A stretch of 64,000 nt of DNA from Candidatus Latescibacterota bacterium (GTDB lineage: Bacteria; JAAXHH01): NCBI GenBank assembly GCA_022823465.1, contig JAJEHX010000005.1, positions 1 to 64,000 on the forward strand. Direction: 5' to 3'. A model generated the notes under the pieces. That model saw only the letters and a list, made by a program, of their open reading frames with translations, made no database searches and had not been told where the DNA came from. The first letter of the stretch is position 1, and each line of letters opens with the position of its first letter. This document shows positions 24,285 through 28,694 of this stretch, piece by piece. The position numbers and the translations under genes were made by a program.

Positions 24285-24932
24285 ATGAACGCATCCGTTT
24301 CCAATTTCGCCGTGGATATCGTTGACCGGTACGCGGAGGACCCGGGCAAGGTTGCCTTGCAATGGCAAAAGACCGGCGGCGTGGCGTCGGACGTGACTTT
24401 CCTGGACTTGAAGATCCGTTCCGAGAAGGTCGCCCACGTGCTCTACCGCCACGGCGTGCGACCGGGCCACCGGGTATTCATCCTGCTTCCGCCGTGCATG
24501 GCCTGGTGGGAGTCCGTCCTGGGATCCATGCGGGCCGGCGCCGCGGCCGTGCTGGGCCAGGACGCGACCGATGCGCAGGTCCTGAAGGACCAGATCATCC
24601 GGTCCCGGTCATCGCTGGTGATCGCCCCCGATATACTGGCGGCCCTGATCGACCGTTTCCGGGACGACTGTACGCAGGTCGCCCACTGGTTGTCCGTTGG
24701 CTGGGAACGGGAGGGCTGGGTGGACTACGACCGCCGCGTCTCGCTCGCTCCGGCCGGATTCAAGGCGGTCGAGACCCGGGGAACAGATCCCTGTATGCTC
24801 GTGTACGACCAGGGTGCTTCGGCTGCCGAAACGACGCACTTCCACGGCGATGCGGATTTCGATCTCGACCAGCTCGACGCCTGGCGCGACGGGCTGGCAG
24901 TTGTGATGCAAGACGCGTCCGAACGCTCATGA
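24285..24932 (+). CDS. Truncated, degenerate AMP-binding (acyl-CoA synthetase N-terminal) protein
   Basis: 215 residues from the ATG at 24285. The sequence follows the first ~200 residues of acyl/acetyl-CoA synthetases: ALQWQKTGGVASDVTFLDLK, then KVAHVLYRHGVRPGHRVFI, LLPPCMAWWESVLGSMRAGA. It reaches the place of the ATP-binding P-loop (normally like YTSGTTGxPK), but here that reads MLVYDQGASAAETTHFHGD. It stops about 25 residues later, lacking the adenylation core and the mobile C-terminal domain. Its TGA overlaps the CoA-transferase ATG (24929-24932). It cannot be a working ligase; it may be a relic or a repurposed binding protein. Confidence 0.7.
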   Translation: MNASVSNFAVDIVDRYAEDPGKVALQWQKTGGVASDVTFLDLKIRSEKVAHVLYRHGVRPGHRVFILLPPCMAWWESVLGSMRAGAAAVLGQDATDAQVLKDQIIRSRSSLVIAPDILAALIDRFRDDCTQVAHWLSVGWEREGWVDYDRRVSLAPAGFKAVETRGTDPCMLVYDQGASAAETTHFHGDADFDLDQLDAWRDGLAVVMQDASERS

Positions 24933-26188
24933 TTCCCGCCCTTACCGACTACCTTGTGGTGGATCTCACCACGAACCTGCCCGGCCCCTACTGTTCCATG
25001 CTGCTTGCCGATCTCGGCGCCCAGGTGATCAAGGTGGAACCGCCCGGCGGCGATCCCCTGCGCGGCTTTCCCCCGGCCTTCGCCAGCGTGAACCGCGGCA
25101 AGCGGGATATCGTGATCGATCTGAAAAAGGGGGCGGGACGGGAGGTCATGGGCCGCCTGATCACACGGGCGGACGTCGTGCTGGAAGGATTCCGGCCCGG
25201 CGTGGCCGAGCGGCTCGGCGTGGATTACCCCTCGGCGAGACGTCTGAATCCCGCCATCGTGTACTGCGCGATATCGGGGTTCGGACAGGAGGGCCCCTAT
25301 CGGAACAGGTCCGGTCACGACATCAACTACCTCGCCATAGGCGGCCTGCTGGGACGCAGCGATCCGCCCGCGGTCCCTCCCGTGCTGATTTCGGACCTGT
25401 CCTCCGGTCTGTACGCCGCGCTTGCGGTCTCCGCCGCGCTGATGCACCGGACGGCCACCGGCAAGGGACGCTGCATCGACCTGTCCATGACCGACTGCAT
25501 CCTGTCCTGGATGGCCCTCGATATCGCCGCCGCGGCACACGCGGCACAGGCCCCTGGCTCGGCGCAGGACCCGGACGCGGCACAGAACCCGAACTCGGCA
25601 AAGGACCCGGGCTCGGCGCGAGACCCGAACTCGGCAAAGGACCCGGGCTCGGCGCGGGAACAGTTTCTCGGTAACATTCCCCACTACGGACTTTTCGAGA
25701 CTTCGGACGGGCGATATATCAGCCTCGGGATCGTTCATGAAGACCATTTCTGGACCCGCTTATGCGACGTCCTGGAACTGGACGACTGGCGGGACTGGCC
25801 GGCGGAAACACGCGCAGCCCGGCAGGCCGGGATACGGGAGAAACTCCGCACCGTTTTCGCCACGGCCACCTGCCGGGAATGGGACCGCCGCCTGCAGGAA
25901 GCCGACGTGCCCTGCGCGGCCATTTACAACCTTGACGAGTTGCCGGACGACCCTTATATACAGTATCGAAATCCGTTTTACAGTCTTGTCGCGTCCGACC
26001 GCTCGGAGAGCCGGCAGGTAAAGGCGCCCTTTCGGACGGACCCGCCCCACGCCGAGCCGCCTCTTCCGCCTCCGGTCAAGGGCGAACACGCGCGCATCGT
26101 GCTATCGGAATGCGGTTACGCGGATGACGAGATTGAAGCGTTGATTCAACAGGATGTCGTACACGCATACCGCCGCGGGAAGAAGTAA
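24929..26188 (+). CDS. Family III CoA-transferase (CaiB/BaiF type)
   Basis: 419 residues. The N-terminus is canonical: LVVDLTTNLPGPYCSMLLADLGA, QVIKVEPPGGDPLRG, NRGKRDIVIDLKK and VVLEGFRPGVAERLG, with the probable catalytic Asp in RSGHDINYLAIGG. These enzymes move CoA between carboxylic acids. Residues 209-244 are an inserted repetitive loop made of six hexapeptides, after which conserved sequence resumes (FLGNIPHYGLFETSDGRYIS). The start overlaps the truncated AMP-binding gene by 4 nt, which hints that the two once formed a CoA-activation module. Confidence 0.92.
   Translation: MIPALTDYLVVDLTTNLPGPYCSMLLADLGAQVIKVEPPGGDPLRGFPPAFASVNRGKRDIVIDLKKGAGREVMGRLITRADVVLEGFRPGVAERLGVDYPSARRLNPAIVYCAISGFGQEGPYRNRSGHDINYLAIGGLLGRSDPPAVPPVLISDLSSGLYAALAVSAALMHRTATGKGRCIDLSMTDCILSWMALDIAAAAHAAQAPGSAQDPDAAQNPNSAKDPGSARDPNSAKDPGSAREQFLGNIPHYGLFETSDGRYISLGIVHEDHFWTRLCDVLELDDWRDWPAETRAARQAGIREKLRTVFATATCREWDRRLQEADVPCAAIYNLDELPDDPYIQYRNPFYSLVASDRSESRQVKAPFRTDPPHAEPPLPPPVKGEHARIVLSECGYADDEIEALIQQDVVHAYRRGKK
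25553..25660 (+). repeat. In-frame 18-bp tandem repeat, six copies, in CoA-transferase gene
   Basis: Six 18-bp units encode PGSAQD, PDAAQN, PNSAKD, PGSARD, PNSAKD and PGSARE (residues 209-244). Units 3 and 5 are near-identical, as are 4 and 6, indicating that a 36-bp pair was duplicated. The insertion lies between conserved blocks of the enzyme. Confidence 0.95.
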
Positions 26189-26210
26189 TCGCATCCCCAA
26201 AGGAGATATC

Positions 26211-27779
26211 ATGAGTATCTTCGTGCGAAACTGGCGAGACCAGGCGCCTTACGTGGGCCACATCAGCGCACTGGTCTGGACGCTGTATCAATCCCATGAC
26301 AAGGATGAAACGTCTCCGCCCGACGTGAACCGCCTGCATGGGATCAACAGCTTCGTCAAGCATGGGTTACAGGGCCATCAGCACTCGGACCATCACCAGC
26401 ACGACAGCATCGAGCAGCTGTATTTCGTCCTTCGCGGCCGCGGCCAGCTGACCATCGGCGACGACAAGGTGGACGTTCGCGACGGTACCGCCGTCTACAT
26501 GCCCGTCAACGTGCCCCACCAGGCGTTCAACGACGGCGACGGCTGGATGGAGCACCTCATCGTCAGCTGCCCGTTGGACGAAATCCGTGAAGGCACGCCC
26601 GCGGTCCGCGACTGGCGCGACGTCCATCCCGTGGTGCTGGAAGGCGGTACCATATCCTGGCCCCTGCTGCTGCGCGAGGGGGAAGTCCCGGCCAGCGAAG
26701 GCGGCGTACTCCAGCGCGTGCACGGCGTGACCCGCTATGCCGTCCAGGGGCGGCAGGGCACTGCCTGGCAGCAGCTGGATGGGATCGAACTCGTCCATTA
26801 CGTGATCAGTGGTTACGGAACGATCGAGGATCTTGACGGAAACCATCAACTGGTCACGGAAGGATCCGCGGCCCACGTACTTCCAGGCGTTGCGCATCGA
26901 TTCGCCAACCAGGGCGAAGGCTGGTTCGAGTACGTCACCTTCGCGGTCGAAGTAGGTGAAGTCGAGATGCCGCAGGAATCCGACGAGGACGCGGAATCCG
27001 AAGAACCGGTCGGACAGTACGGTGTCGAGGAAGCCGCCGCGGCAGCCGTGGTGGCGGAGGTCGACTGGGATGACGCCGACGCGGTGGAAACCGAGGAAGA
27101 GATCGAGGAAGCGGAGACCGCCGATGCGGTCGAAGAAGACGAGGAAGCGGCAGAGGCCGAAGGGGAAGCGTTTGAAGAAGAAGTGGCCGACGCTGACGAG
27201 GTCGAAGAGGAACTAGAAGAAGCACAGGAAGAGGCAGGAGTCAGTGACGAAGATGTGGATGACGGCGAGGATGAAGAAGAGGACGGTGAATCCGACGCCG
27301 GGGAGGAAGCTGAGGACGGTGACGGGGAAGTAGAGGCCGAAGAAGATACCAGCGAGGACGAGGTGGATTCAGAGGACGACCTCGCCGATGATGAAGCTGG
27401 TGACGATGGGGAAGAAGATGAGGAAGGTGATGATGAAGAGGATGGCGAAGCCGCCGCCGATGAAATCGAAGATGACGATGAGATTGAAGAAGACGTAGCT
27501 GACGACGAAACGGATGACGACGAAGAGGGTGACGACGAAGCGGATGATGACGAAGACGATTACCAGGATGCCGATGATTCCGAAGCGGATGAGTCGGATG
27601 AGGAGGAAGTAGAGCCTGCGGAAGAAGGCGCCGCGGAAGACGATTCATCCGGGGACGACGACGATATCGACCTGGAAGACGACGACGCGGACTTCGATAT
27701 CGATGACGATGATGAACCCGCCGTGGAGGACGAGACAGGGGAGTACGACGACGATGCCCCTGATGCGGACAGACGGTAA
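26211..27779 (+). CDS. Bicupin protein with ~270-residue polyacidic tail
   Basis: 522 residues from the ATG at 26211 (AAAGGAGA site upstream). Cupin 1 (about 40-120) has metal-ligand spacing in GHQHSDHHQHDSIEQLYFVL and a second motif PVNVPHQAFN. Cupin 2 (about 180-245) has HYVISGYGTIE and LPGVAHRFANQ. From about residue 252 to the end the protein is a disordered tail, mostly Asp and Glu with Ala, Gly and Ser, no Lys, and Arg only as the last two residues. The cupin part resembles sugar-binding or dioxygenase-like bicupins; the tail is not a normal part of that family. The acidic frame is genuine because it continues an intact cupin with no break. Confidence 0.88.
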   Translation: MSIFVRNWRDQAPYVGHISALVWTLYQSHDKDETSPPDVNRLHGINSFVKHGLQGHQHSDHHQHDSIEQLYFVLRGRGQLTIGDDKVDVRDGTAVYMPVNVPHQAFNDGDGWMEHLIVSCPLDEIREGTPAVRDWRDVHPVVLEGGTISWPLLLREGEVPASEGGVLQRVHGVTRYAVQGRQGTAWQQLDGIELVHYVISGYGTIEDLDGNHQLVTEGSAAHVLPGVAHRFANQGEGWFEYVTFAVEVGEVEMPQESDEDAESEEPVGQYGVEEAAAAAVVAEVDWDDADAVETEEEIEEAETADAVEEDEEAAEAEGEAFEEEVADADEVEEELEEAQEEAGVSDEDVDDGEDEEEDGESDAGEEAEDGDGEVEAEEDTSEDEVDSEDDLADDEAGDDGEEDEEGDDEEDGEAAADEIEDDDEIEEDVADDETDDDEEGDDEADDDEDDYQDADDSEADESDEEEVEPAEEGAAEDDSSGDDDDIDLEDDDADFDIDDDDEPAVEDETGEYDDDAPDADRR

Positions 27780-27791
27780 ACGAAAGCGTAC

Positions 27792-28694
27792 GTGAACAAC
27801 CTACCCGCCCGACCGTTCGGGCGAACCGGCATGCGTCCGGCGGCGCTGGCCATGGGAGCCGCCTTTCTGCACGAAAGCCCCGAGGCGGTCGAAGCGATCC
27901 GGACCGCCCTGTCGCTGGGTATTAACTATTTCGATACCTACCCGGGCCACCACGAGGAAAAATGGGGTGAGGCGCTGTCCGGCGTGCCCCGGTCCTCCTA
28001 CTACCTCCAGGCCAAGATCGGCACCCATCCCGAACGCAGGAAGGACTTCTCCGGGGAGGGCGCCAGGTGGAGCCTGGACCGCAGCCTTCGATCCCTGAAG
28101 ACCGACTATCTGGACTCCGTGCTTGTACACGATCCGACCGGCATGGACGAATTATTGCGCGAAGGCGCGGTTTTCGACGTGCTGCGCGAAATGAAATCGC
28201 AGGGCGTGGTCAGAAACATCGGACTCGGCGCGCGGTCGCATGACTGGCACGTCCGGCTGATCGACGAAGGCATTTGCGACGTGTCTCTGACTTTCCTGGA
28301 CTACACCCTGGTCAACCAGTCGGCCGCCGCCACGATCTTTCCGGCGGCCAGAAGGCAGAAAACCGGGATTATCCTCGCCAGCGTGCAGGGCATGGGTCTC
28401 CTCACCGGAGAGGAACCCGATCCCGAACGAGAGCGGGGGATGCATCCCGGGGCCGAGCCGCGCGCGCACCGGATCTGGACCTGGTGCCGCGAAAACGCCG
28501 TCAACATCCGCCACCTGGCTATTCAGTTCTGCCTGGCGGCGCCCGTGGACAGCGTAGTCATGTTCGGTCCGGCCAGTATCCAGCACGTGCACGATGCCTA
28601 CGAGGCCGCGACAGATACCATTCCATCCGAGTTGTGGGAGAAGCTCGGGCAAGAGTTCGGCATCCGGCCCGGCATGGACGCCGGTCAGTCGTAA
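27792..28694 (+). CDS. Aldo/keto reductase-family protein, altered active site
   Basis: 300 residues from a GTG start 12 nt after the bicupin stop. The AKR barrel is clear: FGRTGMRPAALAMGAAF, NYFDTYPGHHEEKWGEAL, RWSLDRSLRSLKTDYLDSVLVHDP, GVVRNIGLGARSHDW and RHLAIQFCLAAPVDSVVMFG. D48, the Lys of LQAKIG and the His of LVHDP match the catalytic tetrad. The Tyr expected five residues after the Asp is replaced by His53, although a Tyr is present at D+2. Activity is therefore uncertain. It lies in the + strand run of accessory enzymes. Confidence 0.88.
   Translation: MNNLPARPFGRTGMRPAALAMGAAFLHESPEAVEAIRTALSLGINYFDTYPGHHEEKWGEALSGVPRSSYYLQAKIGTHPERRKDFSGEGARWSLDRSLRSLKTDYLDSVLVHDPTGMDELLREGAVFDVLREMKSQGVVRNIGLGARSHDWHVRLIDEGICDVSLTFLDYTLVNQSAAATIFPAARRQKTGIILASVQGMGLLTGEEPDPERERGMHPGAEPRAHRIWTWCRENAVNIRHLAIQFCLAAPVDSVVMFGPASIQHVHDAYEAATDTIPSELWEKLGQEFGIRPGMDAGQS

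Follow-up and report, generated by a model that had tools for sequence, protein, structure and literature searches.

A bicupin of a Candidatus Latescibacterota lineage carries a long polyanionic tail with conserved ends

The stretch of DNA analyzed (64,000 nucleotides of a Candidatus Latescibacterota contig, referred to here as the window) contains a gene for a bicupin with a long acidic C-terminal tail (Table 1). Its ATG lies 22 bases past the CoA-transferase III gene, and the aldo/keto reductase gene begins 12 bases past its stop codon. The order of the genes was identical at the four genus loci that were compared (L006, L008, L057 and L058), and in G001, which belongs to a second genus of the family, the order on the upstream side was the same, bar one gene without a match. 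Promoter and terminator scans gave hits that were no more frequent than in shuffled sequences, and none of the profiled neighbors of the bicupin was named as a ureide enzyme. The neighborhood also includes an SDR gene and two amidohydrolase genes. The CoA-transferase gene contains a repeated stretch, PNSAKDPGSARDPNSAKDPGSARE, at window positions 25545-25670. Its matches in four genus relatives span 1158-1170 bases for 419-423 query residues, so these relatives seem to be about 30 residues short; the missing residues are perhaps those of the repeated stretch.

Table 1. Position and basis of each feature at the bicupin locus (window coordinates)
Feature	Position	Strand	Basis
Upstream neighbor, CoA-transferase family III	24917..26188 (start approximate)	+	Profile match; same place in 4 genus loci compared
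Shine-Dalgarno-like AAAGGAG	26199..26205	+	Read in sequence; 5 bases upstream of bicupin ATG
Whole open reading frame	26211..27779	+	522 aa plus stop; open frame read in sequence
Cupin 1 (ligands H62, H64, E68 and H103), aa about 47-121	26349..26573	+	Pfam; model strands; residue alignment
Cupin 2, aa about 165-248, with E193 and H229 kept	26703..26954	+	Alignment, model strands; positions matched to cupin 1 by eye
Polyanionic tail, aa 251-522	26961..27776	+	Composition; predicted disorder
Conserved tail start, aa 271-300, holds VDWDDADAVETEEEI	27021..27110	+	84% mean pairwise identity, 11 genomes
Acidic, hypervariable middle with in-frame repeats, aa 301-475	27111..27635	+	Alignment, tandem-array scan
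Conserved tail end, aa 476-522, holds IDLEDDDADFDIDDDDE, last residues DRR	27636..27776	+	76% mean pairwise identity, 11 genomes
Downstream neighbor, aldo/keto reductase	27792..28694	+	Profile match; compared across 4 genus loci

The N-terminal half of the protein belongs to the cupin superfamily: Pfam Cupin_2 matched it over two stretches with 70.4 bits, against a cut-off of 27.2 bits. An AlphaFold model of the core alone (250 aa, 15 aligned relatives) had a pLDDT of 87.9 and strands enough for two barrels. The four ligand residues of cupin 1 were invariant in 15 aligned rows, and their counterparts in cupin 2, matched by eye, are Q187, L189, E193 and H229. Two His ligands are thus gone from cupin 2, which probably no longer holds a metal; the bicupin would have a single metal site, with metal binding and catalysis both predicted for cupin 1. 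An earlier note on this DNA had described two well-formed cupins, which is correct for the second barrel as a fold in the model but not for its two usual His ligands. A one-cupin relative was also seen in G001 (G001:C21:29745-30125, L026), where a 152-aa open frame is 35% identical to cupin 1.

The closest solved folds to the modeled core were 1sef, YlbA (1rc6), 1sfn and 4e2q, the Arabidopsis ureidoglycine aminohydrolase (Z 24.6-25.9, rmsd 2.3-2.5, with 218-227 residues aligned at 11-14% identity), and the next in the structure search were oxalate decarboxylase, AerE and BacB. The label of a ‘sugar-type’ bicupin, used in the same note, is not borne out by these neighbors. Assignment as an (S)-ureidoglycine aminohydrolase was also considered, and the protein was not filed as such because NCBIfam TIGR03214 gave 22 bits against an equivalog cut-off of 200 bits. 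The modeled core therefore resembles the DUF861/ureidoglycine aminohydrolase-type bicupins by fold and fails their sequence cut-off, and since many bicupin families reach similar fold scores, no reaction can be chosen.

The tail makes up 272 of the 522 residues (52%) and contains 82 Glu and 76 Asp (158 acidic residues), no Lys and only two Arg, which are the final two residues; its net charge is -156. It had been claimed from the sequence that more than half of the protein is an Asp/Glu-rich tail devoid of Lys and of internal Arg, and both counts agree with this. The most acidic 60-aa stretch of the tail has a net charge of -43, compared with -18 for the next most acidic stop-to-stop frame in the window. 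In a look for a halophile-type proteome, made within the window, eleven proteins had a pI of 4.9-5.9 and a net charge per residue of -0.02 to -0.07. The acid-codon pattern GAN3-N3-GAN3 matched five times in the window, always in the tail (0.03 expected from shuffles), and a longer, mixed acid-codon pattern matched two genes in the whole 3.86 Mb genome, those of the bicupin and TatC. When the whole tail was searched against its own genome (E up to 10), it matched only itself.

Runs of at least seven Asp/Glu codons occur at five places in the genome, none of which is in the bicupin tail; the frames concerned, named by eye, are helix-turn-helix/peptidase-like, methylase-like, TatC and IF-2, and the fifth run may fall in an unused frame. 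The tails might avoid long acidic runs, which would spare the ribosome (PMC9718836). In 9 of 12 tails the longest acidic run ranked in the lowest tenth of the shuffled sequences, but G006, with a run of 12, and G008, with a run of 7, are at odds with this. Among the codons of the tail (window 26961-27635), the first base is G at 85% of positions. In the full-length AlphaFold model (mean pLDDT 45.7) the blocks of the tail scored 24-44 and are predicted to be disordered, and neither end of the tail was docked on the core.

The bicupin was found in all 14 family genomes and all 16 phylum genomes searched (the G014 match being more distant), and at E 1e-25 it was absent from the other 368 of the 384 genomes searched. 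Seven named relatives, with cores 89-95% identical, come from metagenome-assembled genomes labeled Latescibacterota or Gemmatimonadetes. The tail is in frame in 12 of 12 genus genomes and reaches its stop codon in 11, the frame of G012 running into the contig end. The length of the tail, whose variation the earlier note had asked about, is 222-323 aa across the genus, with an Asp/Glu content of 51-58%. A frameshift or sequencing error that falsely opens the acidic frame, which had been raised as a possible falsifier, is ruled out by the same frame being open in all 12 genomes.

Homologs that end after cupin 2 had been suggested as a further objection to the tail. Such homologs exist, although none lies inside the lineage: in G013 (same family, core 60% identical) and G015 (same order, core 53% identical) the stop codon comes right past the last strand of cupin 2, with no acidic frame found behind it in either, and the G014 bicupin is 248 aa long, has no tail and keeps the H-x-H pattern in both cupins (by eye). 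Because a stop after cupin 2 occurs only outside the lineage, the tail is derived rather than an artefact, and because all 12 genus genomes carry it and three other genera stop after cupin 2, it is a lineage-specific addition. In G001 (genus g2, same family) the acidic tail has at least 92 aa with a 111-base repeat and runs into the contig end. The distribution suggests that the tail was gained on the line to g1 and g2, or cleanly lost elsewhere, with g2 and each of the three tail-less genera represented by one genome. The contigs of G012 and G001 (L020 and L024) break off inside acidic repeats, as though assembly had failed on them.

Within the genus, the tail divides into three parts by conservation. 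All 11 genomes with complete tails have a disordered linker of variable length and poor conservation, followed by a conserved terminus. Among these 11, mean pairwise identity was 93% in the core, 65% for aa 251-270, 84% for aa 271-300, 42% for aa 301-475 (over its alignable part, 44 columns only) and 76% for aa 476-522. Differences at codon positions 1/2/3 were 0.047/0.029/0.259 in the core, 0.045/0.077/0.304 in the tail start, 0.197/0.346/0.600 in the middle and 0.122/0.088/0.274 in the tail end; these are not clean synonymous rates, as a third-position change in an acidic codon can swap Asp and Glu. The ratio of position-1/2 to position-3 differences was 0.39 in the tail end, 0.45 in the middle and 0.15 in the core, so the contrast between end and middle is moderate. 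Judged by these ratios, the tail end is under less constraint than the core and is moderately constrained. The conservation of its final codons may be due to the start signal of the aldo/keto reductase gene, which begins 12 bases further on.

The start segment was found at the bicupin gene in 10 of 16 genomes, i.e. in all genus members of that set; an additional weak match in G012 (E 0.55) lies at a site that on inspection shows neither the tail nor the neighboring genes. Of the 14 family genomes, 11 have the end segment, once in each and always in the bicupin gene. The middle, by contrast with both ends, changes length in frame. The period of the tandem arrays in 13 tails was divisible by three in 43 of 43 cases, which is partly a product of the GAN codon make-up. 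Five pairs of relatives were compared for single-base changes in their acidic codons: 53 exchanged Asp and Glu, 41 were at position 2 (to Ala, Val or Gly) and only 8 at position 1 (to Lys or Gln); exchanges of Asp with Asn, His or Tyr numbered zero. Charge alone leaves unaccounted for both the absence of Asp-Asn exchange beside exchange with Gly, Ala and Val and the low rate of change at position 1. The genus tails compared contain 0-2 Lys each.

The preferred explanation, tentative and not one that we would call probable, is that the tail is a polyanionic tether that presents conserved docking ends to a putative partner in trans. In its favor are the inheritance of the tail across the genus, the conservation of both ends beside a drifting middle, their occurrence at this gene, the near absence of Lys and the predicted disorder. 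Against it count the moderate constraint on the tail end, the share of the GAN codons in the repeat periods, the possible influence of the next gene's start signal on the last codons, and the undocked ends of the full-length model. A bicupin of cytosolic appearance would have acquired, in one lineage, an architecture of core, linker and tip: after the folded bicupin come the conserved start segment, a linker that is long, polyanionic and disordered, and a conserved C-terminal peptide that is acidic and weakly hydrophobic. The linker would be conserved for charge and flexibility rather than for sequence. As a charged, extended tether it would keep the enzyme soluble and hold both conserved segments out, and these could dock to a cationic protein or assembly.

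The tail might instead act as a generic brush that supplies only negative charge and hydration, with no specific docking, for solubility, the spacing of oligomers or the loose buffering of Mg, Ca or the catalytic metal near cupin 1. This account, which takes in the solubility role proposed in the earlier note, is the less likely one, although serious: the middle drifts in sequence and length while its charge and composition stay, and Asp and Glu swap freely (the 53 single-base changes above). However, conservation is much higher in the start and the end than in the middle, a difference that a need for charge alone would not call for, although the end is only moderately constrained. No special solubility stress is evident either, since the pI of the neighboring proteins (4.9-5.9) indicates mild acidity only. 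A store or sensor of calcium or other cations that folds upon binding them would suit a tail in which 158 of 272 residues are acidic, but it seems improbable. The EF-hand/dockerin-type loop pattern D-x-[DN]-x-[DNSG]-G was found once in 12 tails, compared with 3.1 in shuffles; the repeats-in-toxin-like GGxGxD was also found once in 12 tails, compared with 0.085 in shuffles. The test comprised these two patterns only, the EF-hand/dockerin type being represented by one loose pattern. Canonical calcium loops are not enriched, though the binding of Ca2+ or other cations that had been proposed for the tail may occur loosely.

In length and charge the tail is like the D/E repeats and acidic tails described in the accessible parts of PMC10250230 and PMC5606850, which would suit a nucleic-acid mimic or decoy, or an autoinhibitor of a nucleic-acid-binding surface. 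We regard this as very improbable, as the acidic tip of Hfq acts on a basic core (PMC5606850, in the part available), but the core here is a cupin with a net charge of -17 and no basic nucleic-acid-binding domain. That charge also makes the mimicry suggested earlier unlikely in the form of a tail acting on its own core. The specific case of an acid-tailed, autoinhibited nucleic-acid binder was rejected, since it requires a basic core and this one has a pI of 5.3 and a cupin fold. The least probable of these alternatives is that the tail is unselected, i.e. read-through or repeat expansion that followed the loss of the old stop codon. Its fast-evolving middle does consist of tandem repeats that keep the frame, and relatives from other genera stop at that place; however, there are no stops inside the tail in any of the 12 genomes, Lys is nearly absent, both ends are conserved, and G013 and G015 have no acidic frame past their stops. 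An acidic transcriptional activation domain was also considered, for which the available part of PMC10550315 gives the rule of a 39-aa tile with a net charge of at most -9 and at least seven Trp, Phe, Tyr and Leu; it was rejected, as the 12 tails have at most four Trp, Phe, Tyr, Leu or Met in any 39-aa stretch.

A long acidic C-terminal tail is also present on TatC (G000:C31, L080:3877-5142, - strand), where it includes the conserved segment YWPDDDEFIYDYD. All 16 phylum genomes have a tail of 117-203 aa behind the TatC domain, with 48-76 Asp and Glu in g1, g2 and g4 and only 28-30 in g3 and g5. The end motif of the bicupin was searched for on TatC and not found, and the sequences revealed no shared motif. 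It is conceivable, but a long shot, that the phylum uses long polyanionic tails with conserved acidic-aromatic segments, as on the bicupin and TatC, as an addressing code; if so, at least one cationic partner still undescribed in bacteria would read it.

The acidic disordered tail on a cupin is a genuine and unusual fusion. Acidic disordered tails have been studied mostly on nucleic-acid-binding proteins. This one arose in a single bacterial family, on a small bicupin of metabolic type, and tail-less relatives serve as natural controls. It therefore offers a clean case for asking whether evolution retains the charge of a polyanionic tail, its length or its short docking ends. A literature search, scant on subscription papers, returned no report of a cupin with such an acidic tail or C-terminal extension, and the word ‘cupin’ does not occur in the main text of PMC12993501, on sponge-associated Latescibacterota, as far as that text was available.

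Among known systems, the DUF861/(S)-ureidoglycine aminohydrolase bicupins have the same two-barrel core fold and a similar size. The chains of 1sef, 1rc6, 1sfn and 4e2q have 242-258 residues and no tail, whereas the present bicupin has a tail and a cupin 2 that lacks two His. BacB, the bicupin of bacilysin biosynthesis (3h7j, 3h7y and 3h9a), is a short bicupin of like fold (Z 22.3-22.8) and a weak sequence match (phmmer E 0.0063); its solved chains, unlike the present protein, have no acidic tail, and its gene neighborhood probably differs. The seed storage bicupins of plants (11S and 7S) likewise have two cupins (Z 21.9-22.6), but are storage proteins and are longer. The 11S globulins have acidic hypervariable insertions rather than a C-terminal tail with a conserved tip.

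In bacteria, Hfq combines a folded core, a disordered linker and an acidic tip, as described in the accessible part of PMC5606850; that tip acts in cis on a basic Sm core, whereas the bicupin core is acidic and its tail exceeds half of the protein. Long acidic disordered D/E repeats occur in eukaryotic DNA-binding proteins of the HMGB1 type, according to the part of PMC10250230 available. The bicupin tail differs in being interspersed with Ala, Val and Gly and in standing on a cupin with no DNA-binding domain. SSB and FtsZ have a variable disordered linker and a conserved terminal docking peptide. Their layout is like that of the bicupin, although no sequence relation is claimed and the bicupin linker is far more acidic. 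By analogy, the combination of a core, a variable linker and a conserved end is the pattern of tethered docking proteins.
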